Shown here one piece after another: positions 11,749 through 55,593 of a DNA stretch of 64,000 nt. Source of the stretch: Sphaerotilus montanus (GTDB lineage: Bacteria > Pseudomonadota > Gammaproteobacteria > Burkholderiales > Burkholderiaceae_C). Made by a program: the position numbers and the translations under genes. Below the pieces are notes generated by a model. It made no database searches, was not told the DNA's origin, and was given only the letters and a program-made list of their open reading frames with translations. The first letter of the stretch is position 1; each line of letters starts with the position of its first letter. The stretch is from NCBI RefSeq assembly GCF_013410775.1, contig NZ_JACCFH010000001.1, positions 3,286,001 to 3,350,000 on the forward strand. Direction: 5' to 3'.

Positions 11749-11787
11749 TGCAGCGGGGAGGGCGCTGAACGCGCCCAAGATCGGATC

Positions 11788-11811
11788 AAGGCGGCCTCTG
11801 GCCGCCTTTTT
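11788..11811 (+). terminator. Rho-independent terminator after the substrate-binding gene
   Basis: A 9-base-pair GC-rich stem (AAGGCGGCC-tct-GGCCGCCTT) is followed by a short T run, 40 bases after the stop codon at 11748. It separates the transport gene from the flagellar operon. Confidence 0.8.
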
Positions 11812-11964
11812 CCTGCTTGACGCGTCCAGGGTTGTGGGTGGGGGCTGCCTGGGGGGAATACGCCGAGAAAGGGCGCGCTTATCGGTCTCCAGTTCCGGAC
11901 CTCGGGCGGAAGAATGGCGGCGAACCCCTTCCTCCGACGCCCCCTTTCCAGAGTCCTCCTTCCG

Positions 11965-17023: not shown

Positions 17024-17895
17024 GCCCGGACCGGCCGACGGAGTCGCTGATGGCATTTCCTTCTGATGGACGTCGTGCTCAACCTGGTGACCAGGCCGAT
17101 GGACTGCGTCGCCTGTTCTCGACCCGGACCGTGCGCTTCATTCCCGTGGTGTCGAATCCGTTCGTCGCGCACGAGGGGGTGCTGATCCGCCAGATCTGTG
17201 CTGCGCTGGATCAGCTCGGTCTCTACACGCTGGTGGTCGATGTCTGCGACCCCCGCCCCGGTGTCCGTGACACCCTGCGACAGAAGGCTGATCTGCCCGA
17301 CCAGGGCCTGGATCTGTCCGACCGCCTCCAGGTGCTGACCGACCGCACCGCGAGTCTGACGGCCCGCGGACTGCCCGCACGCTGGAGCGATGCCAGCGGC
17401 TCCACCCAGGCCTTCCTGCAGGCGCTGATCGATGCGGCACCACTGTCCCAGGCGGTGGTCGTGCACGGTTCTGCGAGCGAGCTGGCCCGGATGTTCGGGC
17501 GCGGCGAGCTGCAGCTGAGCCGGCCACGGCCCATCGTCATCTGCGACGAGCAGCCCGATTCGATGACACATGCCTATGCCGCCCTGAAAGTGCTGTCCCA
17601 GCGCGTGGACTGGCTGTCGCACGACCTGCTGGTGAGTGCGGCGACTGGCTCGGCCGGCATCCGGCTGGTCAAGGACCGGCTGGCCCAGTGTGCGGCGCTG
17701 TTCTTCGGCGGGGTCCGCCACGATTCGGTCGACATCGATCCGCGTACCGTGGCACTGCCGGCGATGGCCCCGGCCTCGCTCATGGCCTTCATGGAGGCCT
17801 CCATGGGCGCAGCGGCGGCGTTTGTCCTGCCCGAGATGGGGCGCCGTGGACCGGCGCTGGTGACGTCGTCACCCCTTTTGCAGCCGATGGTCTGA
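17020..17895 (+). CDS. flhG: FlhG/FleN-like protein that lacks the P-loop
   Basis: Position after flhF and before fliA marks this as the FlhG (FleN) slot, normally a MinD-like ATPase that limits flagellar number. The 291-residue sequence keeps a MinD-like opening (RFIPVVSNPF, then helix LIRQICAALDQLGL, then strand TLVVDVCDPRPG). The deviant Walker A KGGxGKT is replaced by SNPFVAHEGV at about 45-54, with no lysine or threonine to bind nucleotide. It is therefore probably unable to hydrolyse ATP in the usual way. The ATG at 17020 overlaps the flhF stop; a second methionine ten codons later is also possible. fliA begins 19 bases downstream. Homology to FlhG rests on gene order and fold-like pattern, not on strong motif identity. 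Confidence 0.7.
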   Translation: MSPDRPTESLMAFPSDGRRAQPGDQADGLRRLFSTRTVRFIPVVSNPFVAHEGVLIRQICAALDQLGLYTLVVDVCDPRPGVRDTLRQKADLPDQGLDLSDRLQVLTDRTASLTARGLPARWSDASGSTQAFLQALIDAAPLSQAVVVHGSASELARMFGRGELQLSRPRPIVICDEQPDSMTHAYAALKVLSQRVDWLSHDLLVSAATGSAGIRLVKDRLAQCAALFFGGVRHDSVDIDPRTVALPAMAPASLMAFMEASMGAAAAFVLPEMGRRGPALVTSSPLLQPMV

Positions 17896-41529: not shown

Positions 41530-42144
41530 ATGACAACCCTGGCGACACGGTGCGGCGGCTGGCTGCTGCTCTGGCTGGCCGCTTCGGCCTCGGCGCAATA
41601 CAAGGTGGTCGGCCCGGATGGCCGGATCACCTACACCGACCGCCCGCCCGCAGGCGCCGTGGCCCGCCCGCTGGGTGCGGCCAGCCCGTCGACGCCCGCC
41701 GCGGAATTGCCTTACACGCTGCGGCAGGCGGCCGCGCGTTACCCGGCCACGCTCTACGCCGCGCCGGACTGCGCGCCCTGCGACAGCGCGCGTGCGCTGC
41801 TGCGGCAACGTGGCATTCCCGTGCGCGAGTTCACCATCGAGCGCGCCGAGGACGTGGCCGAACTGCAGCGCCGCGAGGGCCGGATCGAGCTGCCCATCCT
41901 GCGCCTGGGCGCCCAGCGCCTGCAGGGCTTCGAGGCCGGGGACTGGCACGGCACGCTCGACGCCGCCGGCTACCCGCGCACCTCGCAGCTGCCGCCGACC
42001 TGGCGGGCCGCTGCGGCCCGGCCGCTGGTGCCGGTCGAGGTGGACAGGCCGGCTTCGCGCGAGGCGGATGCGTCGCCCCGGCGTCCGGCGGTGCCATTGC
42101 CCGCCCCGGTGCTGCCCGCGGCCTCAGGCAGTTTCCGGTTCTGA
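41530..42144 (+). CDS. Exported DUF4124-glutaredoxin protein
   Basis: The 204-residue product has a signal peptide (about 1-22, ending ASASAQ). A DUF4124 segment follows (YKVVGPDGRITYTDRPP at 24-40), then a glutaredoxin/thioredoxin-like domain with CAPC at 81-84 and a proline at ELPILRLG. The tail is Pro/Ala-rich. It is probably a periplasmic thiol oxidoreductase or disulfide isomerase for a client not identified here. The ATG at 41530 gives a proper signal; an in-frame ATG eleven codons earlier does not. Its last 21 bases overlap the convergent diguanylate cyclase gene. Confidence 0.85.
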   Translation: MTTLATRCGGWLLLWLAASASAQYKVVGPDGRITYTDRPPAGAVARPLGAASPSTPAAELPYTLRQAAARYPATLYAAPDCAPCDSARALLRQRGIPVREFTIERAEDVAELQRREGRIELPILRLGAQRLQGFEAGDWHGTLDAAGYPRTSQLPPTWRAAAARPLVPVEVDRPASREADASPRRPAVPLPAPVLPAASGSFRF

Positions 42145-43671
42145 CACGGGCCAGCGGCTGACGCGGTTGCGACCAGTGCGCTTGGCGTCGTAGAGCGCCT
42201 GGTCGGCCCGATCCACCAGCGCGGCCAGTCCGGCCAGCCCCGGCTCGAACAGCGCCATGCCGAAGCTGGACGTGACCCGCAGGCCGGCCACGGACTCGAC
42301 CTGGCTGCCCGCGGTGTCCTCGATCTCGCGCCGCAGCCGCTCGGCCAGCATCAGCACGTCGGCCGCCTCGCGCTGCGGCAGCAGCAGGCAGAACTCCTCG
42401 CCGCCGTAGCGGCACACCAGATCCGTGCTGCGCACACCACCCGCGAGGATGGCCGCCACCGCCTTGATGACCTGGTCGCCGGTGGCGTGGCCGTGGCGGT
42501 CGTTGAACTGCTTGAAGTGGTCGATGTCGGCCATCACGCAGACGAGGCCCTCGCCGCGCTGGTCGGCCAGCTCGAACAGCCGGCTGGCCTGCTCGAAGAA
42601 GGCGCGCCGGTTCAGGCAACCCGTCATCGGGTCGCGGGTGGCGAGCCGGCCGAGTTCCTCGTTGCGCTCGCGCAGGGCCTGCTGCGAGGTCTGCAGCGCC
42701 CGGTTGAGCTGGTGCAGCGCACTGACGTCGCGCAGCCGCAGCATGCTGCCGCGCACCTGACCGCCGGGGTCGAGCACCGGCGTGCACTTCACCAGCACCT
42801 CGCGCACCTGCGCCGGGTCGTCCGCCGGGCCGATGCGCACCTCGCGTTCCTCGGAAGGGGCCGCCGTGCGCACCGCGCTGGTCCATGGGGCCTCGGCGGG
42901 CTCCGGCTCCTCGCCATCCAGCGCGCGGCACAGCCAGTCGAGCTGGGTGACCGGCTGGCCGATGGTCACCGCGCGCCGCGGCTGCTGCAGGGGCGCCAGG
43001 CGGCGGAAGGCCTCGTTGGCCATCATGACGCGGGCCTGCGGGTCGAGGATCACGATGCCTTCGTCGAGCACGTCGAAGGCGTCGCGCACCCGCTCCGGGA
43101 TCACCTGGCCCGGGTCGAGGTGCTGCAGCACCCGGCGCAGGTAGAGCCAGATCGCCACCGAACTCAGCACCACGATGCCCAGCAGCGCCCGCACGACGGG
43201 TGCGGCCAGCACCTCGGCCAGCGAGGTCGGGTAGATCGGCCGGAAGGCGATTTCCAGCGTGCCCCAGGGCTGCGACTGCGCGTCGCGGATGGCCACGCGC
43301 ACCTGCGTGAGCGTCGAGCGCTCGCCGGGTGGCAGGGTCCAGTGCGCCGCATGGTTGCCGATCAGTGTCGTGCGCGGGCGGCCCTGCTGCTGCAGCGCCA
43401 CCGACAGCACCTCGCGGTCCTGTTCGGCCAGCTGCCGGATGGCCGCCTGCGGCAGGCGCCCGCCCTGCTCGATGCCTTGCGTGACCAGCAGCGCCAGCGC
43501 CGTGCTGGTGGTCTGGCGGGCGACGAGTTCGGTGCGCGCCCGGTCCGGGATCAGGCCGAACAGCACATCGAGCAGGAAGATCACCGCCAGGAAGATCGCC
43601 ACCAGCCCCAGCGTCAGGCGCACCTCGACCCCCGGCCGCGGCCACCAGGCGGGCAGCGTGGCCCGGCTCAC
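42124..43671 (-). CDS. Membrane diguanylate cyclase, last gene of the SecA-like/HlyD operon
   Basis: The 515-residue protein begins at GTG 43671, overlapping the exoprotein stop by four bases (GTGA). It has a membrane helix near 20-42, a periplasmic part, a second helix near 165-182, a PAS-like domain (RVRDAFDVLDEGIVILDPQARV) and a GGDEF domain. The active site is GGEEF at 423-427 with an intact product-inhibition I-site RSTD at 414-417. It should make cyclic di-GMP with feedback control. Coupling to the exoprotein suggests a link between export and c-di-GMP signalling. A long open frame continues upstream in the same phase but is antisense-like low complexity within the exoprotein gene. It overlaps the convergent glutaredoxin gene. 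Confidence 0.92.
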   Translation of the reverse strand: MSRATLPAWWPRPGVEVRLTLGLVAIFLAVIFLLDVLFGLIPDRARTELVARQTTSTALALLVTQGIEQGGRLPQAAIRQLAEQDREVLSVALQQQGRPRTTLIGNHAAHWTLPPGERSTLTQVRVAIRDAQSQPWGTLEIAFRPIYPTSLAEVLAAPVVRALLGIVVLSSVAIWLYLRRVLQHLDPGQVIPERVRDAFDVLDEGIVILDPQARVMMANEAFRRLAPLQQPRRAVTIGQPVTQLDWLCRALDGEEPEPAEAPWTSAVRTAAPSEEREVRIGPADDPAQVREVLVKCTPVLDPGGQVRGSMLRLRDVSALHQLNRALQTSQQALRERNEELGRLATRDPMTGCLNRRAFFEQASRLFELADQRGEGLVCVMADIDHFKQFNDRHGHATGDQVIKAVAAILAGGVRSTDLVCRYGGEEFCLLLPQREAADVLMLAERLRREIEDTAGSQVESVAGLRVTSSFGMALFEPGLAGLAALVDRADQALYDAKRTGRNRVSRWPVSEPETA

Positions 43672-46577
43672 CGTGCGGCTCCCTGGCCCGGGGTTCCGGG
43701 CTTGCCTGTGGTGGTGTCGATGCCGTCGTCCTGGTCGCCGTCCTCGCTGGGCGCGTGGGGGCTGTCCCGGCCGAGCACCTCGGCGGCCGAGGCTTCCTCG
43801 TTCTGCGGGTCCTGCCCCGCTGCGCCAGCGTCGCCCGGCCGGATGCGCACCGGCAGCGGCGCCCGGGTCAGCACCGGCAGCGGATCGAAGAACTGCCAGG
43901 TCGGCACCGACACCAGCAGCGAGCCGGCCACGCCGCCCAGCCGCACCGTCCACCACACCAGCCCCGCGGTCAGCGCCAGCCCCGAGGCCTCGATCGGGTC
44001 GATGGCCGACTGCAGCTGCCCGGCGGCGTCCTGCAGGTCCGTGCGCAACTGGCCCAGGCCGTCGCCGGCCAGTGCCGGCAGCTCGACACCGTGCGACAGC
44101 ACGTTCGGCAGTGCATACCCGGCCTGCAGCGCCGCGAGCGCCGTGTCGGGCAGCACCAGTGCCAGCAAGTCGGGAGGGGGAACCGGGTCGGTGGCATGCG
44201 CTGCGGCGCTGGAACCGGCGTACGCCGTGCGGCTGTGCGCGCTGAGCGCGGCGATGTCGGCTGAACTGTCGGCCTGGACCTGCGCCAGCCACTGCTCCGC
44301 CGTGACGGCGCGCACCTCGCGCGACAGCGGCAGCCGGTCGCCGGACAGCGCGGGCAGGTCCATGGACTGGCGTTGCATCTCCTCGGCATCCCGCACGGTC
44401 GGCCTGCTGACCGTGAGCAGCGGGGTCGGTTCCAGCGGTGGCATCTGCACCGTCGCCGGCGCTGGCGCTGGCGCAGGACCTGGCGCCGGTGCGGGGCTCC
44501 ACTCCACGCCGACCGTGGTCCAGGCGCTGAAGGTGCTGCCGTCGCTGACACGCAACTGGACGGTGGGCGCCTGGTCCGCCGCGGTCGCGACGAAGCGGAT
44601 CTGGCCGGACTGCAGCGCGTCCAGGCTGAACTGTGCGAGCGCGGTGCCCGGTGCGTTCACGGCCTCGAAGCGCCCGCCGGTGACCGTGCCGACCTCCACC
44701 CGCAGGGACGTGGTGCTGCCGTCCGGGTCCTGCGCGTTCAGCACGGCGGGGCCGAGTGTCAGCGGCTGGTCGCTCTGGATCTTCCAGGGCGCGAGCGTCA
44801 GCGCCGGCGGCTCGTTGACGTTGTCGATGAAGACCGTGAGGGTCTGCGGGGCGCTGCTCAGGACGCCATCGCGCACGGTGGCCGTGAGGACGACCGAGGC
44901 CCGCTGTTCGTGGTCGAGCGTGGCGGGGTCGACCACCCGGATGGTGCCGGTGGCCGCATCGACCGCCAGCGCGGGGCTGCCGGCGAGTGTCCAGCCGGAC
45001 AGGGTGGTACCGGGGTCGGCGTCGGTGGCGCGCAGCGTGCCGACCACGGTGCCGGCCGGGCTGTTTTCCAGGACGTGCAGGGTCTGCGCGGCATCGACCA
45101 CCGGGGCGCTGGGCACCACCTGCACCGGCACCGCGTTGCCGAACTCGGAGCTGTCGCCCCAGGGCCGGGCCGCCGTGGTGGCGGACTGCACGGTGGCGGT
45201 CGCCGACACCACCTGACCGGTCTGCAGCAGCACACCGGCCAGCGTGGCGTCGATGGGCGCGAGGCCGTTCGCGCCGACCGTCACGCGGGTGCTGCCGAGG
45301 AAGACCGCGCCTTCGCCGAAGCCGAGCGGATCGGCCTGGTCGCTGGCGAAGAACTCGATGCGCAGCGTCGTGCCGGCGGCTCCGGTCACGTCGCCGACCA
45401 GCCGCGTCACACCGGCCGCGCTCGTGGCGCTGCCCAGCACGGGGTAGTTCAGCAGGTTGTTGGGACCCCCATCGGTGTCGGCCTCGCGGTTGCCGCTGAC
45501 GCCCTCGGCGCCGAGGTCGATGCCCAGCCCGGCGTTGTCGTGGACCGCGTTGCCGAGCACCGACACGCCCCCTGCGGTACCGACGATGGAGATGCCCGCG
45601 CCGGCCTTCTGCCAGGCGATCAGGTTGCCGGTGCCGGCGGTGGTGCCGCCGATCAGCACGTCGCGCGTGTTTTCCACGTAGATGCCGAACGCACCGTTGC
45701 CGACGGCGCGGGTGCCGCTCACGTCGGTGCCGATCAGGTTGCCCTGCACGGTGCTGCCGCTGGCGCCCGCCAGCAGGTAGACGCCCTCGTAGCCGTTGCC
45801 GCTGACCAGGTTGTGGACCACGGTCGCCGACGGGGCGTCGAGGTAGACCCCGACCGTGCGGTTGCCGAGCGCGGACTGGCCGAGTGCGTCGGTGCCGATG
45901 TAGTTGCCCTCGATGCGGGCGCCGACCGCGGCCGGGCCCGTCACCTGGACGCCGGCGTTGTTCCCGGACAGCAGGTTGCGGTCGGCCGCCGTCGGTCCGC
46001 CGACCAGGGCCTGGGCGGCGCTGATCTCGATGGCGTTGCTGCCATTGCCCGGTGCGGACTGGCCGGTGACGTCGGTGCCGATGCGCAGGCCCGCCAGCGT
46101 CACGCCATCGGCACCGGCGCGGACCTGGATGGCGGCCCCGCCGAACTGGCTGATGACCAGCCCGCGCACGAGGCTGCCGTCGCTGCCGTCGGCCAGCACC
46201 AGCGCCGAGGCGCTGCCGCCCGCGTCCGTGCCGACCAGCTCCACCACCGGCCGGCTCAGCGCCAGCGCGTCCGGCTCGCGGCTGGCGTCGAGCCAGACGG
46301 TGTCGGTGAGGATGGGCAGCGCCGAGCGCGGGGTGATGGTGTGGGCGCCGTCGACCAGCGGCGCCGGGAGGTCGAAGCGGATCGTGTCGGCGCCGGGGTG
46401 CAGGTTGGCCTGGGTGATGGCGTCGCGCAGCGAGCCGGTGCCGCTGTCGGCGGTGGTGCTGACGACGAAGGTGCTGCCGATGTCGCCCAGGCTGGCCAGC
46501 GCGGCGGTGTCGGCGGCGTACAGGATGCGCGGCTCCAGTTCCTCGTACTGCCAGCGGCGGCGGGGCGGGCGCGTCAT
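43668..46577 (-). CDS. LEPR-XLL repeat exoprotein with beta-helix and cadherin-like parts
   Basis: The 969-residue protein has the LEPRILYAAD motif at 14-23, the mark of the LEPR-XLL family of large exported proteins; no ordinary signal peptide precedes it. Residues 35-370 read as a parallel beta-helix with many G-N-x-I-G turns (LLSGNNAGVQV, VQGNLIGTDVSGT). Cadherin-like repeats follow (LENSPAGTVVGTLRATDADPG and later NVNEPPALTLAP). A Pro-rich spacer, a hydrophobic helix (LVWWTVRLGGVAGSLLVSVP) and the closing FDPLPVL and an acidic tail complete it. The C-terminal helix plus DPLPVL is a feature I associate with this family. It overlaps the adaptor gene upstream and the cyclase downstream by four bases each, so it is the likely substrate of the operon's machinery. 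Confidence 0.85.
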   Translation of the reverse strand: MTRPPRRRWQYEELEPRILYAADTAALASLGDIGSTFVVSTTADSGTGSLRDAITQANLHPGADTIRFDLPAPLVDGAHTITPRSALPILTDTVWLDASREPDALALSRPVVELVGTDAGGSASALVLADGSDGSLVRGLVISQFGGAAIQVRAGADGVTLAGLRIGTDVTGQSAPGNGSNAIEISAAQALVGGPTAADRNLLSGNNAGVQVTGPAAVGARIEGNYIGTDALGQSALGNRTVGVYLDAPSATVVHNLVSGNGYEGVYLLAGASGSTVQGNLIGTDVSGTRAVGNGAFGIYVENTRDVLIGGTTAGTGNLIAWQKAGAGISIVGTAGGVSVLGNAVHDNAGLGIDLGAEGVSGNREADTDGGPNNLLNYPVLGSATSAAGVTRLVGDVTGAAGTTLRIEFFASDQADPLGFGEGAVFLGSTRVTVGANGLAPIDATLAGVLLQTGQVVSATATVQSATTAARPWGDSSEFGNAVPVQVVPSAPVVDAAQTLHVLENSPAGTVVGTLRATDADPGTTLSGWTLAGSPALAVDAATGTIRVVDPATLDHEQRASVVLTATVRDGVLSSAPQTLTVFIDNVNEPPALTLAPWKIQSDQPLTLGPAVLNAQDPDGSTTSLRVEVGTVTGGRFEAVNAPGTALAQFSLDALQSGQIRFVATAADQAPTVQLRVSDGSTFSAWTTVGVEWSPAPAPGPAPAPAPATVQMPPLEPTPLLTVSRPTVRDAEEMQRQSMDLPALSGDRLPLSREVRAVTAEQWLAQVQADSSADIAALSAHSRTAYAGSSAAAHATDPVPPPDLLALVLPDTALAALQAGYALPNVLSHGVELPALAGDGLGQLRTDLQDAAGQLQSAIDPIEASGLALTAGLVWWTVRLGGVAGSLLVSVPTWQFFDPLPVLTRAPLPVRIRPGDAGAAGQDPQNEEASAAEVLGRDSPHAPSEDGDQDDGIDTTTGKPGTPGQGAAR

Positions 46578-47452
46578 GGTGTCTTCGTCCCGGCGGATCC
46601 CGCCGATCCGGCGACCGTGGCCAGACCCAGGTCCACCTGGCAGCGCGCGCCGGCCGGCACGGCGCGGTCGGCGTTGTCCATCGCCAGCCGGACCCGGAAG
46701 GTGTTGCTGGCCGCGTCGATCACCTGGTCGACCTGCGTGACCGTGGCCTCGCGCGCGGCCACGCCCGGCACGTCGGCCTTCACCGGGTGCCGGGCGCCGG
46801 CGCGCACCTGCCCGAACTGGCTGGCCGGCACGACCACCTCGACCCGCAGCCGCGCCACATCGGCCACGCGCAGCAGCGGCAGCAGCTCGACCCGCTCGCC
46901 GGGCTGCGCCATGCGGTCGACCACGACCCCATCGAAGGGGCTGCGCAGCGCCCGCTGGTGCAGTTGGGCCAGCGCCTGCGCTGATTCGGCCTGGTAGATG
47001 GCGCGCTGGTCCTCGGCCTGCTTCAGGCTTTGCGCCGCCACGGTCAGCTCGGTGCGGGCCTGGTCGAGGGCGATGTCGGAGATGAACTGCTCGGCGTGCA
47101 GCGATTCGGCGCGCTGGGTCTTCTGCCGCGCCAGCGACAGCGTGGCCTGGGCGGCGCTGACGGCGGCCTGTGCCCGGGCCCGGGCTTCGGCGGTGCGGAC
47201 CGAGGCCCGCTCGCCGGCCGCGTGCAGCACCGCCAGCGGCTGGCCCTGGCGCACGCTGTCGCCGCGGTCGACCAGCATGCGCTCGACCACGCCCGCCACC
47301 GGGGTGCCGATCTCGGCCACCCGGGCCGGCGTGATCAGGCAACCCAGCGTGAGCGCGGACGCGCAGGCGGGCAGCAGCAGCCAGAGCGACAGGCCGAGCA
47401 GCAGGGCGGGGCGGGGCGGGTGGCGGTCGCAGGGCATGGGTCGTGGTGTCAT
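46574..47452 (-). CDS. Periplasmic adaptor (RND/HlyD type), possible lipoprotein
   Basis: The 292-residue protein is a membrane-fusion adaptor. After a hydrophobic leader with a possible lipobox (LLLPAC) come the barrel-sandwich strand VAEIGTPVAGVVERMLVDRGDSVRQGQPL, a coiled-coil hairpin (about 85-155) and the returning lipoyl strand LRSPFDGVVVDRMAQPGERV. A beta-barrel ends with VDQVIDAASNTFRVRL. Such adaptors bridge inner-membrane pumps and outer-membrane channels. No RND pump or TolC is nearby. The start at 47452 lies 20 bases after the SecA-like stop; a methionine five codons later is also possible. The stop overlaps the exoprotein start. Confidence 0.88.
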   Translation of the reverse strand: MTPRPMPCDRHPPRPALLLGLSLWLLLPACASALTLGCLITPARVAEIGTPVAGVVERMLVDRGDSVRQGQPLAVLHAAGERASVRTAEARARAQAAVSAAQATLSLARQKTQRAESLHAEQFISDIALDQARTELTVAAQSLKQAEDQRAIYQAESAQALAQLHQRALRSPFDGVVVDRMAQPGERVELLPLLRVADVARLRVEVVVPASQFGQVRAGARHPVKADVPGVAAREATVTQVDQVIDAASNTFRVRLAMDNADRAVPAGARCQVDLGLATVAGSAGSAGTKTP

Positions 47453-47472
47453 CGGACAGGGGTGGAGGGAGG

Positions 47473-49188
47473 TCAGTCGCCCGGGGCGAGCCGGTCGAGA
47501 CGCTGGCGGACGAGGTCGTCGCCCAGGCGCAGGCGGCGGCGTTCGTCGGCCGCCCGGGCCTCGCGGGCGCGCTGGCGCAGGCGCCAGGCCACATCGCGCC
47601 AGGCCCCGAGCGCACTGACGGTGTACAGCGAGCGGGGCGCACCGACCCGCCAGTGTTCGACGCTGCCGGGATCGCCCTGCCGGGCGCAGCGGCCGAAGAG
47701 CTGCTCGTCCAGGCGGCGTGCCGGGTTGTCCTGGCAGTTCAGCACGTGCAGACCGCCGGCCTGGGCGGCGCGCGGGTGCAGGCGGATGTCCACGCCGCGG
47801 CCCGCCATGCGGGTGGCCACGGTGATGCGGCCGGGCTGGCCCGCCTCGGAAATCAGCGTCGCTTCGAGGGCATCCTGCCGCGCGTCCAGGCATTGCAGCG
47901 GCATCGGCGCCGCGCCGGCCGCGAACGCTGCCTCGAAGGCCGCGACCAGCTGCAGCGACTGCGGCACGCCATCGGTGCCGATCAGCACGGGGCGGCCGAG
48001 CCGGGCCAGCGCCAGCGCCCGTTCGACCACCGCCCGGTCGCGGGCCGCCTCGTCGGCGAACCAGCGGTTCGGGCCGCGTTCGCGGCGGGGCGGCGCATGC
48101 GGCGGAATGCGCGTGACCCGCAGGCCGTAGAGCCGGTGCAGCTCGTGGCGCTGGTCGTGCAGTGTGGCGCTGGTGCCGCCGATCAGGCGGTAGCGGCGCA
48201 GGAAGTGGCTGTAGGTGGTGCGGGCGGCGCTTTCGGTGGGCGGCGGTGGCGGGCAGCCTTCTTTCAGGCAGACCAGCTCGTGCAGGCCGTTCGACCACAT
48301 CCGCCCGGTGGCGATGCGGCCGGTCACGGGATCGATCAGGCGGAGCTGGCCATGGCGCACCAGGTAGTCGCGCTGCGGCTGCAGCAGGTGCGTGGCGACC
48401 AGCGCCAGGCGCACGAGTTCCTCGCGGTGCAGCCGGTGGCGCCACAGCCGCGCGAGGCCAGTGCAGAGCGTGTCCAGCCGCTGCGCACCGGCGGGGGTCA
48501 GCGCGGCATCGCGGGCGACCGGCTGCAGCTCGAAGTCGCGTCCGGGCTGCAGCCGGGCGGCCAGATCAAGCGCGGTGCCCAGCTGCGACAGGCGCTCGCC
48601 GGCCTCGCCGTGGCGGGCCAGCACCAGGGGCATCACGGCCTCGTCGAGCAGGATGCTGTCGGCCTCGTCGATCAGGGCCGCGTCGAACGCGGACACGGTC
48701 GCGGCGGCATCGTCGTCGGGGGTCTGGGTGAGCGCGCGGGCGTGTGCGCTCAGGCGGGCGTCCCGCGCCGAGGCGGACCAGGCCGAGCGGCCGGCCACCT
48801 GGTCGCGCAGGCTGTCGAAGACCAGCTCCCGCGCGCTGACGTACACCACGTCGGCGCGGTAGGCCGCGGCGCGTTCGGCCGCGGTGTGCTCGGCGCTGAC
48901 GGCCGCCACGCGCAGGCCGAGCCGCGCGTACCAGCCGTGCAGCTGCCGGGCATCCCGCGTGGCGAGGTAGTCGTTGGCGGTGAGCAGGTGCACGCTGCGG
49001 CCGCGCAGGGCCAGCAGCGCCGCGGCCAGCGCGAGCGCGAGGGTCTTGCCTTCGCCGGTGGCGAGTTCGGCCAGGCGGCCCTCGACCAGCGCCTGTGCCG
49101 CGAGCCACTGGTTCGGGCGCGGCACCAGCCCGAGCGCCTCGCGGCAGGTGGCGTCGAGGCGGGTCTTCAGCGCGGCGTTGGTGTCCAT
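47473..49188 (-). CDS. Short SecA-like ATPase
   Basis: The 571-residue protein keeps the SecA motor motifs: ATGEGKT at 43-49, LLTANDYLATRDA, DEADSILLDEA at 174-184, GRMWSNGLHELVCLKEG at about 295-311, GGTSATL at 337-343, VATRMAGRGVDI at 457-468 and QLFGRCARQGDPGS at 496-509. It is far shorter than housekeeping SecA (about 900). It lacks the long helical scaffold and the C-terminal zinc motif, and the cross-linking region looks reduced. It should therefore be an accessory SecA paralogue for a special substrate. The ATG at 49188 is two bases from the stop of the M50-like gene; the open frame beyond is in that gene's antisense phase. Confidence 0.88.
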   Translation of the reverse strand: MDTNAALKTRLDATCREALGLVPRPNQWLAAQALVEGRLAELATGEGKTLALALAAALLALRGRSVHLLTANDYLATRDARQLHGWYARLGLRVAAVSAEHTAAERAAAYRADVVYVSARELVFDSLRDQVAGRSAWSASARDARLSAHARALTQTPDDDAAATVSAFDAALIDEADSILLDEAVMPLVLARHGEAGERLSQLGTALDLAARLQPGRDFELQPVARDAALTPAGAQRLDTLCTGLARLWRHRLHREELVRLALVATHLLQPQRDYLVRHGQLRLIDPVTGRIATGRMWSNGLHELVCLKEGCPPPPPTESAARTTYSHFLRRYRLIGGTSATLHDQRHELHRLYGLRVTRIPPHAPPRRERGPNRWFADEAARDRAVVERALALARLGRPVLIGTDGVPQSLQLVAAFEAAFAAGAAPMPLQCLDARQDALEATLISEAGQPGRITVATRMAGRGVDIRLHPRAAQAGGLHVLNCQDNPARRLDEQLFGRCARQGDPGSVEHWRVGAPRSLYTVSALGAWRDVAWRLRQRAREARAADERRRLRLGDDLVRQRLDRLAPGD

Positions 49189-49190
49189 CG

Positions 49191-51365
49191 TCAGTCGCGC
49201 GCCTGGAACTGGCCGAGGAAGGTCTGCCGCAGCCAGCGCCCCAGTTGCCACGCGGCCGAGCGCGGCGCGAACGCGAAGCGCACCCACACGCGGCTGCCGA
49301 CCCGCTCGCCCAGCGGCTGGTCGCTGGCGAGTTCGAGCACCGACACCGGGTCGCGGCTGGTCAGCCCCTGCGGGTCGGTCGGATCGGTGACGACCTGACC
49401 GCCGCCGGTGTCGCCGAGGCTGCGGGTCGGCAGGCGCCGGGTGGCCGACGGCAGGGTGGTGGTGCGCAGACGGGCGCCGAGCCGGTCGGCCGGCCGGTCG
49501 CTGCGGCGCAGCGTGATGCCCTGCAGGCTGTCCTGCACCAGCAGCGCATCCTCGTGTGGCAGCACCACCTGCAGCGTCCGGTTGTCGTCCGGGCGGACAT
49601 GGCCGAGCGTGTCGCCGCGTTCCAGCCAGCGCCCGCCGAGCCGGGGCGCGTCGTCCAGCACCAGCGTGCCGGCGCGCGGCGCGCGCACGGCCAGTCCGGC
49701 GATCTCCGTGTCGAGCTGCTGGCGCTGGGCGCGCAGGGCGCCGGCCTGCTGCTGCAGCGCGGCGGCCTGGCCCGGGTCGCGGGCGAGGGCATCGAATCGG
49801 CGCGCGTCCAGCCCGGCGAGCTGTTCGTCCAGCGCGGCGCGGCGGCTGGTCAGGCGGTCGTCGGCGAGCGGGAGCACCACGTCGCCCGCGGCCACGCGGC
49901 GGCTGGCCGACGCCGGCGGGGTGGTGACGAAGCCGGCGGTCTGCGGCCGGATCCAGGCCGACTCCGGCAGCCAGACCACGCCCTGCGCGGTGGTGGCGTG
50001 CGGCAGCGGCCAGAAGAAGAACAGCGCCAGCATGGCCGCCGCGATCAGCGCCACCCGCCCCATGGCGACCCGGCGCACCGACGCCGCCAGCATCGGCGCC
50101 TGGAGCTGCCGCCACAGCTCCAGCAGCGGTGCGCCCACCACCAGCCCGCCCAGCACGGCGGCCGCCGCCAGCCCCAGCCCCGCGTGCACGCTCCCCAGCC
50201 AGCGCACGATCAGCAGGCCGAGCCCGGCGCGGTAGAGCCACGACAGCGGTGCATAGGCGATCAGCCAGCCCCGCTCGCCCGGCGCGCAGGCCGGTGCGGG
50301 GGCGGCGTGTCCGGGGCCGTTGACCAGCCGGCTGCCGACACGCAGCCACCAGCGCCGCGAGCGCGCCGCCAGATTCGGCAGGTCCAGCGCGTCGCACAGG
50401 GCGTGGTAGCCGTCCATGCGCAGCAGCGGGTTGCCATTGACCAGCAGGCTCGACACCGCGCCCAGGAAAAGCACGACAAAGGCCAGGTCGTGCAGCAGGC
50501 CGTTCTGCGTGTGCTGCCAGACCACCAGCGCGCCGGCGGCCATCGCCAGCTCCGCCATGATCCCCGCCAGGCTGACCAGCAGCCGCTGGCCCCGGCTCGC
50601 CAGCGCGCTGGCGGCGCGGGCGTCCACATGGGGCACCGGCGTGAACAGCACCATCGTCAGCCCGAAGGCGCGCACCTCGCCGCCGAAGCGGTGGATGGCC
50701 AGCGCGTGCGCGGTCTCGTGCAGCAGCTTCATCACCGGGTAGACGGCCCAGAGCAGGCCGAGGTGGTGCGGGCTGCTCAGCCAGTGGCGCCCGTGGGCGG
50801 ACAGGGCCGGCCAGTCGGCCAGCGCCGCCAGCCCGGCCGCGGCCACCGCCAGCGCCCACAGCACCAGCAGCGCGGGCTGGAGCACCGGGTGCAGCCCGTG
50901 TTCCAGCCACCGCACCAGCCGCGACGGATCGCCCAGCGTCACCTGGAAAGCCAGCGGATTGGCCGCGCTGACGAGCGACCGCGGCCGCGGTGGCTGCCAG
51001 TCGTGGTCGGGGCGGGACGGACCCGCCGCCGCGGCATCGATCGGCGCCTGCAGCAGACCCGCCTGCTGCAGGTGCGCGAGCAGGTCGATCACCTCGGCCT
51101 GGGTCGGCGCGTCGTCGCCCTGTTCATCGAGCAGCGTCTCCCACAGCCGCTGCACCGTGCGTTCGCCGTTGCAGCGCCCGACCAGGGCCCAGGCGGCGGC
51201 GTCCAGCCGGTGGGTGCGCTGCGACACGCCATCGGTGAGCAGCATCCAGCGCTCGCCCCGCGTGGTCTGGCGCTGCAGGCGGACGTGGCCACGCAGCCGT
51301 GGCTTCAGTGGCGCGACACGGTACCAGTGCGGGTGCAGCAGGGCATCGGAGGGGAAGTCAGCCAT
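49191..51365 (-). CDS. PqqD-like - M50 site-2-protease-like - HlyD hybrid membrane protein
   Basis: The 724-residue protein has an N-terminal PqqD-like region (about 20-108: RWMLLTDGVSQRTHRL, then a winged helix ending LLAHLQQAGLL). A membrane core holds the metalloprotease motif HETAH at 216-220 and NPLLRMDGYHAL at 312-323, the second metal-ligand region of M50 proteases, with six or more helices. A C-terminal HlyD-like part (about 465-724) has VRAPRAGTLVLDDAPRLGGRWLERGD. PqqD-like domains hold peptide substrates; M50 enzymes cut or process within membranes. Together these suggest substrate handling and export. It overlaps the GAF-HlyD gene by eight bases. Confidence 0.87.
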   Translation of the reverse strand: MADFPSDALLHPHWYRVAPLKPRLRGHVRLQRQTTRGERWMLLTDGVSQRTHRLDAAAWALVGRCNGERTVQRLWETLLDEQGDDAPTQAEVIDLLAHLQQAGLLQAPIDAAAAGPSRPDHDWQPPRPRSLVSAANPLAFQVTLGDPSRLVRWLEHGLHPVLQPALLVLWALAVAAAGLAALADWPALSAHGRHWLSSPHHLGLLWAVYPVMKLLHETAHALAIHRFGGEVRAFGLTMVLFTPVPHVDARAASALASRGQRLLVSLAGIMAELAMAAGALVVWQHTQNGLLHDLAFVVLFLGAVSSLLVNGNPLLRMDGYHALCDALDLPNLAARSRRWWLRVGSRLVNGPGHAAPAPACAPGERGWLIAYAPLSWLYRAGLGLLIVRWLGSVHAGLGLAAAAVLGGLVVGAPLLELWRQLQAPMLAASVRRVAMGRVALIAAAMLALFFFWPLPHATTAQGVVWLPESAWIRPQTAGFVTTPPASASRRVAAGDVVLPLADDRLTSRRAALDEQLAGLDARRFDALARDPGQAAALQQQAGALRAQRQQLDTEIAGLAVRAPRAGTLVLDDAPRLGGRWLERGDTLGHVRPDDNRTLQVVLPHEDALLVQDSLQGITLRRSDRPADRLGARLRTTTLPSATRRLPTRSLGDTGGGQVVTDPTDPQGLTSRDPVSVLELASDQPLGERVGSRVWVRFAFAPRSAAWQLGRWLRQTFLGQFQARD

Positions 51366-52803
51366 TCCAGCGCCACCACTGCAGGCGCAGCCAGTCGGCC
51401 ACCCGGCTGCCCAGCGCCACCAGCCGGCTCTGCCGCCCGACTTCGATGCGGGCGACCCCCGTCAGTCCGGGGCGCAGGACCGACGCGCCAGCCTGTGCGC
51501 CGGGCTGCAGCCGGGCCTCGACCTCGAACACGTTCGCGCCCTCCACCACGTGTGCTGCCGGCTGCACCCGCTCCACCTGCAGCGCCAGCGTGTCCCACGG
51601 CAGTGCCGACAGCGCCAGCCGCGCCGGCTGTCCGGGCCGCACGGCGTCGATGTCGCGTTCGTCGATCTCGATCACCACCCGCGGCGCCTGGTCCGGCATC
51701 AGGCGCATGAGCGTGTCGCCGCGCCGCACCGGCATGCCGACCGAGCGCGTCAGGTCGCCCTCCAGCACCAGTGCATCCATCGGGGCCTCGATGCGCGTGC
51801 GGCCGAGTTCGCGCCGCACCTGCTGCAGCTGCGCGCCGACCTCGTCGCTGCGGGCGAGCTGCACGCCCATCTGCGCCCGGTCCGAGCGGGCGAGGGCGGC
51901 CATGTAGGCGTTCTGGTGCCGGGCGATCTCGCTTTCCAGGCGGCGGGCATCGACTTCCAGGTCCTGCGGTGCCAGTTCCAGCAGCGGCTGCCCGGCGCGT
52001 ACCTGGTCGCCCGGTCGGGCGTGGACCGCCTGCAGGAAGCCGTCGGCGGGCGCCGTGAGACTGCGCTCCTGCTGGCCATCCAGCCGTGCCCGGCCCCCGA
52101 GTTCGTGCGTGACCGGCCACAGCAGCCACCCGGCCGCGAGCATGGCCAGACCGCCGCCCAGCCCGCGGCGCAGCCGGGACGACCGCTGCCAGCGCTGCGA
52201 CACGTGCTGGGTGGCGCGTTGCCACAGTGGCTGTTCGTGGCGGTGCAGCAGGTCGAGCCACGGCGCCATCAGCGCGAGCTGGTGCGCCAGGGTCTCGGGG
52301 TCGAAGCGGGCGAGTGCCTGCGGGTCGCGCCAGCACAGCGTGAGGGCGCCGACGACGCGGCCGCAGGCGTGCAGCGGCAGGCTGGCGACCGCGCCCAGGT
52401 CACCGCCTGCGGGCTGGACCAGCGCGGCATGGGCCAGCGTGATGCGGGGCGGGCTGCCAGCAGGCTCCGGACAGCGCACCAGCCCCCCCTGGTCGATGCA
52501 CTCGTCCATCGCGGCCTCGAACGCGCGTGTCGCCCGCACCGCGCCGGCCTCGTCCCCCAGCGCGCCAGGGTTGGAGACGGCCCGCAGGTGGCTGCGCTGC
52601 CGCTGCCACCAGCCCAGCGCCACCTGGGCACAGCCGAAGCTGGCGGCCAGGTCTGAAACAAGTTGTATTCCTGCCGGACCGAAGCGGTCCTGCGACATCA
52701 GGCTGGCTTGCCAGGCGACGAGCTGCGTCAGCGCGGGCGGGCCATTGGTGTTCGCGGGATCACGTGCCGTGGTGGTGCGGTGGTCGGACAGGGAACGCGT
52801 CAT
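51358..52803 (-). CDS. GAF-domain HlyD-type membrane protein, first gene of the operon
   Basis: The 481-residue protein starts at 52803 (MTRSLSDHRTTTARD). A GAF-like cytoplasmic domain (about 30-195) contains LVSDLAASFGCAQVALGWW and GDLGAVASLPLHACGRVVGALTLCW. A membrane helix (about 235-255, LGGGLAMLAAGWLLWP) is followed by an HlyD-like periplasmic arm with ADGFLQAVHARPGDQVRAGQPL, a coiled-coil hairpin and a returning lipoyl half. GAF domains bind small ligands, so this may be the sensing or gating part of the export machinery. A hairpin lies four bases before the ATG and a CRP-type site about 67 bases before it. Confidence 0.87.
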   Translation of the reverse strand: MTRSLSDHRTTTARDPANTNGPPALTQLVAWQASLMSQDRFGPAGIQLVSDLAASFGCAQVALGWWQRQRSHLRAVSNPGALGDEAGAVRATRAFEAAMDECIDQGGLVRCPEPAGSPPRITLAHAALVQPAGGDLGAVASLPLHACGRVVGALTLCWRDPQALARFDPETLAHQLALMAPWLDLLHRHEQPLWQRATQHVSQRWQRSSRLRRGLGGGLAMLAAGWLLWPVTHELGGRARLDGQQERSLTAPADGFLQAVHARPGDQVRAGQPLLELAPQDLEVDARRLESEIARHQNAYMAALARSDRAQMGVQLARSDEVGAQLQQVRRELGRTRIEAPMDALVLEGDLTRSVGMPVRRGDTLMRLMPDQAPRVVIEIDERDIDAVRPGQPARLALSALPWDTLALQVERVQPAAHVVEGANVFEVEARLQPGAQAGASVLRPGLTGVARIEVGRQSRLVALGSRVADWLRLQWWRWNG

Positions 52804-52951: not shown

Positions 52952-55183
52952 TCAGGTGCCGATGCGTCCGCCGTCGTTCTTCGTGATGACGATGGTGGCC
53001 GAGCGGGGACGCTTGCCAGCGCCGTAGCCGGCGTTCGACGGCCACTGGCTGGTGTACTTCGTCGGGTCGGCGATGTCGGCCATCTTCGTGCCTTCACCCG
53101 GGTGCTGGATGTTGATGAACATCGTCTTGCCGTCCGGTGTCTCGACCAGACCGGTGATCTCGCAGTCCTTCGGGCCGACCAGGAAGCGCTTGAGCGTGTC
53201 GGCGGTCGGCGCCTTGCCGATGAAGGTGTCGACGCTCAGCGCGGAGCTGTGCGGCAGCGTCTTCTTCGTGCCATCGCCGACCGTGCCGGGAATGCCGGCC
53301 AGCATCATGCAGTTGGTCACGTCGGTGTAGGCGCCGTCGTCGGTCTGGATCCAGCAGATGCCGGTCGACTTGCTGAACACCAGGCCGTCCGGGCTGGAGA
53401 AGTCCTGGTCAGCAGTCAGGTTCGACAGGTTCACCAGGCCGGTGTCCGCGTCCGACTGGGCGCCGAACACGTACACGTCCCAGGTGAAGGTCAGGGCGGC
53501 GGCGCTGCCACCGGCATCCTTGAGGCGCAGGATGTGGCCGTTCGGGTTGCCTTGCTGCGAGGTCGTGCCCTTCATGTCCGTGTAGGCGCGCGGGTTGGCG
53601 CTGTCCGGGGCGAGCTGGGTGCTGCTGCCGGCGGTCGGGGCGACGCGGCGGTTGCTGTTGTTGGTCAGCGTGAAGTAGACCTCGCCGGACGTCGGGTGCG
53701 TTGCGCACCACTCCGGGCGGTCCATCTTCGTGGCGCCGACGGCGTCACCGGCCAGGCGGCTGTTGACGCGGATGTCGGCTTCGTCGGCGAAGGCGTAGGC
53801 GGTGTAGGTGGTCGGGATGGTGGCCTTGCTCAGCTCGATCCACTGGCCGGTGCCGTCGGCGGCGAACTTGGCGACATAGAGCTTGCCGTTGTCCAGGTAC
53901 TTGGCGCCGGTGGCCAGGCGGTCGGTCGGGTTGGCGTCGGCGGCGGACCAGGCGGTGTCGGAGACGAACTTGTAGATGTACTCGTTGCGCGCGTCGTCGC
54001 CCATGTAGACGGCCAGCTTCTCGCCCGCCTTCGGCAGCGAGAATGCGGCGCTTTCGTGCGCAAAGCGGCCCAGGCCGGTGCGCTTGACCATGCGGCTCGT
54101 CGCCTTGTAGGGGTCCATCTCGACGATGTAGCCCATGCCGTTCAGCTCGTTGCGGTAGTCGTCGGTGCCGTCGGCCGAGGTGCCGGTCTTGGCATTGATC
54201 CAGCGGGCGTAGATGTCGGCGGTGCCGGCGGTTTCCCAGCCGTGGCGCGACGCGGCGCCTTCGGCGCGGCCATAGCGGTTCAGCGCGACGACCGACTTGT
54301 CGTTGCCGCGGGCCAGGTTGTCGCCGGCCGGACGGGTGAAGTAGCCGAACCAGTTCTCTTCGCCGGACAGGAAGCTGCCCCACGGCGTCTTGCCGGTGCC
54401 GCAGTTGTTCAGCGTGCCGCGGGTGCGGGTGCCGTCGATCGAGTACTTGGTCTTCAGCAGCGTGTGGCCTTTGGCCGGGCCGCTGATGTCGACTTCGGTC
54501 AGCGCGGTGATGCGGCGGTTGAAGGCCGAGTTCTGGACATAGGCCCAGGCGCTGCCGGTCTTCTTCATCTCGACGACCGAGACGCCGTGGATGGCGACTT
54601 CCTTGTCCACTTCGGTGGCCGGACGCGGCAGGGTCTTGGTGCCACCGTTGGCGTGCAGGAAGAACGACGACAGCGTCTCGTCGGTCGTGGCTTCGTGGTT
54701 CATGGCGATCAGGCCACGGTCCGAGGCGGTGGTCGAGGCCGAGCCATCGCTGCCCAGGCTGAACCACTCCATGCCGTCGTGGTGGTCGCCGGCGCGGTTG
54801 CCGTAGTCGGTGTCGGTGCCGTCGTTCTTGTAGGCAGCGGTCGAGGCGGTCAGCGGATCGCCGAGCGCGTAGACGACAGTGGCGGTGTAGCCGGCGGCCA
54901 GCGTGACCTTGTCGGCCATGCCCTTGGGCACGGCGGTGAAGCCGAGCTTGGACAGCGCGCCGGTGTCGACCACAGGCGTCGCCACGGCGTCATCACCACC
55001 GCCGCAAGCGGCCAGACCGAGGCTGCCGAAGACGGCGGTGGCGGCCGTGCCCACGCCACTGCGCAGCAGGCCACGGCGGCTCAGCCGTGCGTCGAGCACC
55101 GAGGAGAAATGCGGGTTGGCGCTGGTGTTGCTGTCTTCTTCGGCGCGGGCGGCGAGGTGGCTGAGGTCGATGGGCTGTTGCAT
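52952..55183 (-). CDS. phoX: PhoX-family alkaline phosphatase, Tat exported
   Basis: The 743-residue protein matches PhoX phosphatases, calcium/iron enzymes that release phosphate from organic esters outside the cytoplasm. The leader has the twin-arginine motif LSRRGLLRSG (R36, R37) and a lipobox-like GLAAC ending at C60, so it may be a Tat-exported lipoprotein. Family blocks include HDGMEWFSLG, LNNCGTGKTPWGSFLSGEEN with the metal-site cysteine, DRPEWCATHPTSGEVYFTLTNN and NPNGHILRL. The ATG at 55183 has a GGAG box; the open frame upstream is non-coding. A candidate Pho box lies 57-74 bases before the start. TatA is encoded at the left end of the window. Confidence 0.93.
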   Translation of the reverse strand: MQQPIDLSHLAARAEEDSNTSANPHFSSVLDARLSRRGLLRSGVGTAATAVFGSLGLAACGGGDDAVATPVVDTGALSKLGFTAVPKGMADKVTLAAGYTATVVYALGDPLTASTAAYKNDGTDTDYGNRAGDHHDGMEWFSLGSDGSASTTASDRGLIAMNHEATTDETLSSFFLHANGGTKTLPRPATEVDKEVAIHGVSVVEMKKTGSAWAYVQNSAFNRRITALTEVDISGPAKGHTLLKTKYSIDGTRTRGTLNNCGTGKTPWGSFLSGEENWFGYFTRPAGDNLARGNDKSVVALNRYGRAEGAASRHGWETAGTADIYARWINAKTGTSADGTDDYRNELNGMGYIVEMDPYKATSRMVKRTGLGRFAHESAAFSLPKAGEKLAVYMGDDARNEYIYKFVSDTAWSAADANPTDRLATGAKYLDNGKLYVAKFAADGTGQWIELSKATIPTTYTAYAFADEADIRVNSRLAGDAVGATKMDRPEWCATHPTSGEVYFTLTNNSNRRVAPTAGSSTQLAPDSANPRAYTDMKGTTSQQGNPNGHILRLKDAGGSAAALTFTWDVYVFGAQSDADTGLVNLSNLTADQDFSSPDGLVFSKSTGICWIQTDDGAYTDVTNCMMLAGIPGTVGDGTKKTLPHSSALSVDTFIGKAPTADTLKRFLVGPKDCEITGLVETPDGKTMFINIQHPGEGTKMADIADPTKYTSQWPSNAGYGAGKRPRSATIVITKNDGGRIGT

Positions 55184-55239
55184 GGGTGCTCCGTGGCGCG
55201 TGGCAGAAATTGTGACTTTCCGCATCCTCTGCGGCCACT

Positions 55240-55257
55240 GTGAAATCCGCATGACAG
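55240..55257 (-). promoter_or_regulatory. Candidate Pho box upstream of phoX
   Basis: On the minus strand CTGTCATGCGGATTTCAC resembles the PhoB box: the first repeat CTGTCAT is perfect, the second is weaker. It is 57-74 bases before the phoX start, where a PhoB activation site would be expected. Confidence 0.5.
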
Positions 55258-55334
55258 CATCAAGGCAGATCGGTGACAGCCTGTCCGCCGGACAATGGAC
55301 GCCTGTTCCACTGCTGCCCCGGGCCACCACTGCC

Positions 55335-55574
55335 ATGACTGTCGACGCGCGCACTGCTGCTTCCACCTCTTCCTTGCCAGGCCGACGTCTGGCCGGTGCC
55401 GCCGTGCTGGCGGCCACGTTCGCCCTGGGCGGCTGCGGCGTGATGGCCGTGGCCGGTGCCACCGCCGGGGCCGCGATCTCCATCACGGGGGCGGTCGTCT
55501 CCACCGGCGTCAAGGTCACCGGCAAGGTGATCGAGAAGACGATCGATGTGGTGACGCCGTCCAGCGGCGACTGA
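55335..55574 (+). CDS. Small Gly/Val-rich lipoprotein
   Basis: The 79-residue product has a lipoprotein signal (AATFALGGC, cysteine near residue 34). A short Ala/Gly/Val-rich tail follows (VAGATAGAAISITGAVVSTG, then KVTGKVIEKTIDVVTP). Short lipoproteins with this VxGxxV pattern are common and unassigned. The ATG at 55335 is used; one at 55251 in the same frame would give an over-long lead. It is divergent from phoX, so the Pho box region could serve both, and it converges with uvrD. Confidence 0.6.
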   Translation: MTVDARTAASTSSLPGRRLAGAAVLAATFALGGCGVMAVAGATAGAAISITGAVVSTGVKVTGKVIEKTIDVVTPSSGD

Positions 55575-55593
55575 TCTCGCCGCCAGAGGCCGA

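Follow-up and report, generated by a model that had tools for sequence, protein, structure and literature searches.

A short SecA, two HlyD-armed membrane proteins and a LEPR-XLL protein: a candidate dedicated exporter in Sphaerotilus montanus

What might a SecA-like ATPase without the last third of SecA be doing in an operon with two membrane proteins that bear HlyD-type arms, a periplasmic adaptor, a large exoprotein and a cyclic di-GMP (c-di-GMP) synthase? The question is posed by a locus of Sphaerotilus montanus (assembly GCF_013410775.1, contig NZ_JACCFH010000001.1), found at 42124-52803 of the stretch of 64,000 nucleotides that we analyzed and call the window. Six minus-strand genes stand there in the order F-E-D-C-B-A: F and E encode the membrane proteins, D the short SecA, C the adaptor, B a protein with the N-terminal LEPR-XLL motif and A the c-di-GMP cyclase. 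The best explanation as a whole, to which we give a probability of about 0.6, is that LEPR-XLL proteins have a dedicated exporter spanning the envelope, encoded three times in this genome, and that the locus is one of these copies. The case is built on gene order, on co-occurrence and adjacency, on intact ATPase and protease motifs, on the low hydropathy of LEPR N termini and on the presence of a single SecY in the genome.

Is the locus real? Re-derivation from reading frame, GC content at third codon positions and translation returned the six genes exactly as the initial annotation had them, with overlaps of 8 bases (F/E), 4 (C/B) and 4 (B/A) and gaps of 2 (E/D) and 20 (D/C). Against two genomes of the same genus, dN/dS lies between 0.21 and 0.45 for all six, which look to be under purifying selection; dead genes are thereby ruled out. 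The genome has three paralogous cassettes, each of its short SecAs standing in the order F-E-D-C-LEPR gene. When the genome was searched with the LEPR-XLL domain model NF012209 at E <=10, six matches came back, and the three over the cut-off are the three cassette LEPR genes. Their frames run to 1356, 3176 and 5652 codons, and all three share a hydrophobic C-terminal signature that ends in DPLPVL. With the same order found twice more in one genome, and conserved in named loci elsewhere, chance is ruled out as its cause. The cassette is real, conserved and exporter-like and, as far as sequence can tell, apparently functional.

Among 59 relatives, 11 carry the short SecA (E <=1e-60) and all 11 have a LEPR protein over the cut-off; so do two of the 48 relatives without it (G050 and G037). 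Counting our own genome, 20 short SecAs occur in 12 of 60 genomes. GAF-HlyD and M50-HlyD genes adjoin every one of the 20, an adaptor follows downstream on the same strand in 16 and a LEPR gene lies beside 15; at least two of the exceptions are contig-end cuts. The side-by-side recurrence across genomes that the initial annotation had proposed to look for is thus there. One of 14 control genomes, that of Deinobacterium chartae, also has a match over the LEPR cut-off.

A wider search with the M50-HlyD profile gave at least 575 relatives, the best 80 of which became our named loci (numbered with an L), a set biased to close relatives because it was taken from the top of the scores. GAF-HlyD lies directly upstream in 75 of the 80 (five are cut off), and the short SecA lies downstream in 73 (five cut off, two absent). 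The adaptor is in place in 57, on the opposite strand in two, cut off in 11 and not in place in ten; a LEPR motif falls within 2 kb downstream in 30. The taxa include Zoogloea, Ramlibacter, Methylobacterium, Ensifer and Geomonas, together with a Nitrospira metagenome-assembled genome (MAG) and a Rokubacteria MAG. Might the genes simply travel together? LEPR genes and cassette would then form a surface-adhesion island, tied by regulation or horizontal co-transfer and without any physical export relation. The patchy distribution (12 of 60 genomes) and the signalling gene in the operon would suit such an island. Linkage alone does not explain, however, why a LEPR gene is present in 39 of the 50 genomes among these loci where none was seen just downstream of the cassette. 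Also against such an island, a LEPR match turned up in only one of 228 genomes without M50-HlyD. We regard co-transfer as a most improbable account.

The last figure comes from a sample of 299 Pseudomonadota genomes. M50-HlyD is found in 71 of them (E <=1e-60), LEPR-8K in 43 (E <=0.01) and both in 42, the sole LEPR-only genome contributing a 64-aa frame. Conserved co-occurrence with LEPR-XLL proteins, on which the initial annotation had staked its reading, was therefore found. It follows the class of M50-HlyD: LEPR turns up in 30 of the 33 genomes that have the full-length protein (best E below 1e-100), in 12 of 38 with divergent forms only and in that one of the 228 with neither. Fisher's test gives 8e-31, and 8e-22 when genomes are collapsed by hand to genera (28/41 vs 1/140), values that overstate independence because the sampled genomes are related. 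The search scored at most three M50-HlyD candidates per genome, so copy numbers are capped and a few negatives may be false; the E 0.01 limit of the LEPR search leaves out this genome's own third LEPR gene (E 0.0147).

Distances tell the same story. Setting aside four of 64 LEPR matches with frames below 300 aa, 60 remain; 22 share no contig with M50-HlyD, and 34 of the other 38 lie within 15 kb of it. The open frames reach 19,427 codons. The short SecA, searched at E <=1e-60 in the M50-HlyD-positive genomes (M50-HlyD-negative ones being tallied as SecA-negative), was found in 29 of the 33 genomes with full-length M50-HlyD, and 27 of the 29 have LEPR; not one of the 38 divergent genomes showed it. 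These counts take in this genome on a search of its own and G128 on a partial match beside M50-HlyD; a single stop interrupts four of the matches counted as short SecA, and also one fragment of a split gene. The short SecA lies 213-1158 bp from M50-HlyD in 32 measured pairs, which exclude this genome and four further cases that were partial, split or without a partner. Taken as sequence evidence, all this strongly supports LEPR-XLL proteins as the substrates.

The exporter core itself is already known. Kamneva, Poudel and Ward (2015; PMC4452313) described it as a 'secondary SecA_DEAD' locus in which SecA_DEAD, M50-HlyD, GAF-HlyD and HlyD genes stand together, and they suggested that SecA takes the place of the ABC ATPase there and that the pore could be formed by M50. 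Two features of that four-gene locus recur here, a SecA_DEAD protein without SecA_SW (theirs has no wing-scaffold domain, or a fragment of one) and neighboring M50-HlyD, GAF-HlyD and HlyD proteins. The main text of PMC4452313, in the parts available, names no substrate and does not mention LEPR, giant or cadherin. For its part the NCBIfam description of NF012209 names a domain only, and the accessible literature that we found attaches no export route to LEPR-XLL. In the open literature, subscription papers and most preprints lying outside the search, we came upon no publication that connects the locus with LEPR-XLL, and among the passages listed from the polymorphic-toxin review PMC3482391 none concerns SecA. 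To the 2015 locus, as its accessible text describes it, our analysis adds the LEPR-XLL substrate, its N-terminal signal, a PqqD-type RiPP recognition element (RRE; RiPPs are ribosomally synthesized and post-translationally modified peptides), loci without SecA and the three paralogous cassettes. What looks new is the substrate, its signal and a likely recognition step. The initial reading of a dedicated export system with its own substrate accordingly survives as to substrate, with 42 of 43 LEPR-positive genomes behind it, and gives way as to the novelty of the core.

Table 1. Genes of the six-gene run and the sites within them, in window coordinates.
Feature	Position	Strand	Basis
F: GAF-HlyD protein, 481 aa	51358..52803	-	HlyD_3 1.3e-16; GAF_2 0.0024
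E: PqqD(RRE)-M50 intramembrane protease-HlyD fusion, 724 aa	49191..51365	-	PqqD 2.2e-5, over cut-off
PqqD-like (RiPP recognition element type) domain, residues 22-105 of E	51051..51302	-	TIGR03859 7.4e-7, under cut-off
HExxH zinc site, residues 216-220 of E	50706..50720	-	invariant in alignments A2 and A4
D: short SecA-like ATPase, 571 aa, without SecA's C-terminal third	47473..49188	-	SecA_DEAD 3.7e-57
Walker A TGEGKT, residues 44-49 of D	49042..49059	-	T44, G45, G47, K48 invariant, 58 sequences
DEAD-type Walker B, residues 174-177 of D	48658..48669	-	D174, E175, D177 invariant, 58 sequences
C: periplasmic adaptor, 292 aa	46574..47452	-	TIGR01730 RND_mfp 125.8 bits, cut-off 94.9
B: LEPR-XLL exoprotein, 969 aa, predicted substrate	43668..46577	-	LEPR-8K, beta-helix and cadherin domains
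LEPR-XLL signal EELEPRILYAAD, residues 12-23 of B	46509..46544	-	genome search and N-terminus alignment
C-terminal hydrophobic signature ending DPLPVL, B	43803..44015	-	profile A5, E 1.2e-23, B one of its rows
A: PAS-GGDEF diguanylate cyclase, 515 aa, GTG start	42124..43671	-	GGDEF 2.6e-42; overlaps B by 4 bases

What kind of SecA is D? The protein carries SecA_DEAD, SecA_PP_bind (the preprotein cross-linking domain) and P-loop_SecA, with no Pfam match to SecA_SW; these matches bear out the SecA-like label of the initial annotation. A profile of 58 D-type sequences aligns to residues 47-607 of the 778-residue SecA chain 7xha_A, and the AlphaFold model of D, with a mean predicted local distance difference test (pLDDT) score of 91, has one long helix at its end. 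SecA's C-terminal third carries the wing that contacts SecY and the two-helix finger; in the model, neither has a counterpart in D. The top NCBIfam match of D is a SecA2 model at 340.4 bits, short of its cut-off of 725 and only 0.3 bits above a SecA model. With 239-340 bits, D stays below the curated cut-offs of four SecA2 models, which lie at 725-1100.

The genome encodes one SecY, one ordinary SecA (a 945-codon frame) and the three short SecAs. We found no second SecY in it, just as had been annotated for the locus, and the single SecY rules out an accessory Sec system. The likeness to such systems (SecA2, SecA2-SecY2) ends with the further SecA proteins beside the housekeeping one; here the motor is truncated, its partners are HlyD and M50 proteins and SecY2 is missing.

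The same inventory bears on another way of reading the locus, in which the giant crosses by the housekeeping SecYEG/SecA, the cassette serves maturation and surface assembly and the short SecA, acting in targeting or as an unfoldase, passes the chain to SecYEG. SecA2 is known to hand chains to SecYEG in SecA2-only bacteria, and D, if barely, matches SecA2 best. With one SecY in the genome, any SecY-dependent route must use it. There are also loci without a short SecA that accompany LEPR proteins, so translocation can do without it. Set against these points are the missing C-terminal third of D and the LEPR N termini themselves. Up to 12 residues from the start of the motif, the maximum 15-residue Kyte-Doolittle mean, our only measure of N-terminal hydrophobicity, has a median of 0.21 and a highest value of 0.81 (n=47); the adaptors, with a median of 1.91 (n=54), have the hydrophobic core that the LEPR N termini are without. 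We think a SecYEG route rather unlikely.

If the N terminus of B is no ordinary signal peptide, what is it? The LEPR-XLL assignment of this 969-residue exoprotein was borne out: against the cut-off of 17 bits, LEPR-8K reaches 18.3 on its first 73 residues and 18.9 when the genome is searched, and falls short, at 16.0 bits, when the whole protein is scored. From 51 N termini we removed L129, L138, L143 and L149, and the remaining 47 collapsed to 43 distinct sequences with the consensus R-x-[LV]-[ILV]-E-x-[LFMI]-E-P-R-[IL]-L-Y-S-A-D. Its constancy is partly by construction, because the regular expression that gathered the N termini imposed E at +1, R at +3 and A/G at +8 and restricted other motif positions. 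Free of that pattern are E at -2 (42/43), P at +2 (32/43) and D at +9 (41/43). A basic stretch, with a median of four K or R, precedes the motif. As a side observation, DUF4347 follows the motif in three longer LEPR proteins (L006, L007 and L154) and is absent from B.

A motif of this kind recalls a family of small peptides. Daptide precursors bear ELExMEAP, according to the available text of PMC10036551, and are cleaved after an ELExxxxx motif, according to that of the preprint PMC12338566. The likeness of ELEPRILY to the daptide motif is partial and suggestive. The best family match of the N-terminal half of E is, in turn, the daptide RRE-intramembrane peptidase, NF041824, which all 58 aligned E-type sequences match. 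At E <=0.01, Pfam finds M50 in 52 of these 58 (E itself not among them), PqqD in 45 and HlyD_3 in 44, and a profile of the 58 matches the solved PqqD structure 3g2b at 7.1e-6. A Sphaerotilus MAG encodes an M50-HlyD protein of 87% identity. The AlphaFold2 model of E has a mean pLDDT of 87, and the Foldseek matches listed for it (best 50 of 300) are adaptor-type proteins only. Like the daptide leader peptidase MpaP/DapP of PMC10036551 (as the accessible text presents it), E fuses PqqD/RRE to an M50 site-2 protease and would meet an ELE-type leader motif in its substrate; unlike it, E has an HlyD arm, scores below the NF041824 cut-off and would act on a predicted substrate of about 1,000 to 19,000 codons, not on a peptide. 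HlyD_3 in E reaches only 0.0025, and GAF is weak in F itself (E 0.0024) and present at E <=0.01 in 21 of the 29 sequences aligned with F. The annotated labels GAF-HlyD and PqqD-M50-HlyD hold, then, for the HlyD of F and the PqqD of E; by Pfam, GAF and M50 are weak or absent in the window's own proteins and found in most of their relatives.

HlyD-type domains inevitably bring type I secretion to mind. The cassette has the HlyD-type periplasmic adaptor of such systems, and the N terminus of C looks by eye hydrophobic and signal-peptide-like. As in HlyB-HlyD-TolC, HlyD-family arms and an adaptor make a one-step conduit through the envelope plausible; what differs is a SecA-like ATPase in place of an ABC ATPase and a conserved signal at the N terminus. 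No ABC domain occurs in the six proteins, as the initial annotation held, and its absence there rules out ordinary type I secretion; ABC genes elsewhere in the genome were not examined. A variant would make B a type I passenger, with an unlinked ABC transporter supplying the energy and the SecA an accessory. HlyD-type domains in three proteins (weak in E) and outer-membrane factors in the clusters of four SecA-less relatives speak for it, as does one Vibrio LEPR-XLL giant with C-terminal RTX domains, reported in the available text of PMC10868602. The signal at the N terminus and the want of an ABC domain in the cassette speak against it, and no RTX or type I C-terminal family appears among the Pfam matches of B or in the scanned stretches of three other LEPR proteins, two of which are without their C termini. 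This variant strikes us as quite improbable.

Related loci that come with LEPR proteins show that a dedicated exporter of LEPR-XLL proteins, if that is what the cassette is, need not have the short SecA. In five divergent loci (L143-L146 and L148) the order is adaptor, HlyD, M50-HlyD. In L144, L145 and L155 (from G332) the adaptor has an outer-membrane factor next to it, and in L150 there is one nearby; these four candidates, chosen by eye in four SecA-less loci, were all confirmed as outer-membrane factors (OEP). The 12 divergent-only genomes with LEPR have no short SecA, and three of the four full-length M50-HlyD genomes in which none was found at E <=1e-60 (G222, G332, G069 and G061) are LEPR-positive. 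SecA may therefore power or feed one branch, and the other must then use another energy source or general machinery. SecA scores low by tblastn in the cassettes of L106 and L103 (64-107 bits), where it may have degenerated or diverged strongly. The self-contained machine of the initial annotation, with SecA as its motor, thus stands as a dedicated cassette and falls as to the motor's universality, 4 of 33 full-length and 38 of 38 divergent genomes showing none at E <=1e-60. Its statement that there is no TolC fits the window locus and does not extend to the clusters of L144, L145, L150 and L155, nor to the genome, where 12 outer-membrane factors are encoded, all unlinked, the nearest about 49 kb from any of the three cassettes.

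At the other end of B is the hydrophobic signature. Profile A5 was built from seven rows, three from this genome and one from G222; a regular expression for the C-terminal segment gave no matches. The giant proteins beside divergent SecA-less clusters (3' ends of the LEPR genes in L144, L145, L148 and L150) do not end in DPLPIL; by eye, their ends have a short helical-looking tail, such as LLASIEELRG, and may form a second C-terminal class.

Directly after the LEPR gene, in all three cassettes of this genome, comes a PAS-bearing signalling gene. In cassettes 1 and 3 it encodes PAS-GGDEF cyclases with 37.8% identity over residues 10-505 of A; in cassette 2 it encodes a hybrid histidine kinase whose similarity to A covers residues 116-493, with a receiver-GGDEF-EAL protein after it. 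A full cyclase follows the LEPR gene in L032 and L033. In L065 (a Thiobacillus MAG), L082 (Denitromonas) and L125 (a Betaproteobacteria MAG), the next frame is similar to the N-terminal half of A (residues 37-142, 14-350 and 19-393, respectively; E 1e-7 to 7e-41), these stretches ending before any output domain is visible. Every LEPR gene that bears the signature and whose end could be read, eight of eight with the three of this genome included, thus has a homologue of the sensor half of A as its next gene. In L037 and L048 the LEPR frame ends inside the stretch and neither signature nor sensor follows, the frame of L048 ending in apparently out-of-frame sequence. Among 19 neighborhoods, L032 and L033 alone showed the cyclase next to the LEPR gene, which suggested a local addition; we rejected that idea, because most other LEPR genes run off the stretch or have unreadable ends and the readable signature ends show the sensor half. 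The diguanylate cyclase counted in the set by the initial annotation is constant in its sensor half and not in its GGDEF output.

How might a dedicated exporter assembled from these parts work? In the scheme that we put forward tentatively as part of the best explanation, the PqqD/RRE domain of E would bind the basic N terminus and the motif E-x-L-E-P-R-I-L-Y-S-A-D. D would grip the unfolded chain and, bypassing SecY, feed it to a complex that E and F form in the inner membrane, where the M50 site of E would cut off the leader close to the motif. The periplasmic conduit would consist of adaptor C and the HlyD arms of E and F, completed by a TolC-type channel encoded elsewhere. In this one lineage the C-terminal signature would stop transfer, so that the protein stays anchored in the inner membrane while its body lies outside, and the abutting sensor (A with its cyclase, the histidine kinase in cassette 2) may read the anchored protein and couple it to attachment signalling. 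A bolder reading, which we hold to be possible and short of probable, takes LEPR-XLL for a RiPP-type leader turned secretion signal. The RRE, with its site-2 protease and HlyD arm, would capture and clip proteins of up to about 19,000 residues, and a SecA without its SecY-contacting parts would drive them through a HlyD-based conduit free of SecY; a sister branch would do the same without SecA, and in one lineage the anchored giant would be an antenna for the signalling protein encoded beside it. Such a secretion pathway would combine RiPP, Sec and type I components.

Not everything fits, and several results pull against a dedicated exporter or this scheme for it. M50 falls under the Pfam threshold in E itself, and E matches the daptide protease NF041824 at 6.7e-36 with 124.2 bits where the curated cut-off is 300 bits. 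The LEPR N termini, when read 25 residues past the start of the motif, reach hydropathy means of up to 1.75. Glutamate precedes the L of the motif in only 18 of the 43 N termini, which is why the motif's likeness to ELE is only partial. Profile A5 matches only 5 of the 299 genomes, of which two had contributed to it and a third has a weak match in a 52-aa frame, and so the anchor idea is limited to one lineage. LEPR was not found in 11 of the 50 cassette genomes without a LEPR gene just downstream (some of the 50 loci are cut by contig ends), nor in 3 of the 33 full-length M50-HlyD genomes. Neither L081 and L107 nor G222, G332, G069 and G061 yielded a short SecA, which therefore cannot be the obligatory motor of every LEPR system. 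Finally, the window locus has no outer-membrane channel.

The surroundings of the cassette deserve a few lines. A PhoX phosphatase gene (52952-55594) lies on the same strand, 148 bp upstream of the six-gene run, and downstream a DUF4124/glutaredoxin gene, convergent with the operon, overlaps the end of A by 21 bp. Scans of the window with Rfam and for tRNAs returned no matches. On the plus strand at 58176-63512 is a 1778-aa frame for an unusual large protein with kelch/galactose-oxidase-like, F5/8, PKD, di-haem cytochrome peroxidase, cytochrome c and PA14 domains. In other loci, a SapC-family gene sits inside or beside the cassette (L151:6202-7047, PF07277, 2.5e-76; by eye, from similar N termini, also L152:16896-17675 and L159:2703-3596); SapC is linked to S-layer transport. 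Some cassettes have a small DUF3467 gene before GAF-HlyD (L160:4484-4804, PF11950, 3.7e-16; L158:14195-14503 by eye), and downstream of the cassette in L159 a 2036-aa gene (11021-17131) has what looks by eye like an autotransporter-barrel end, VRYSW.

For us the attraction of a dedicated LEPR-XLL exporter is that two orphan observations would explain each other, an exporter-like locus without a substrate and a giant-protein N-terminal domain without an export route. If true, this would give SecA a second mode of action and take the pairing of RRE and site-2 protease beyond small peptides. How some of the longest proteins of bacteria come to be displayed at the surface would then become directly testable in the genera of cassette-bearing isolates (Zoogloea, Ramlibacter and Methylorubrum).

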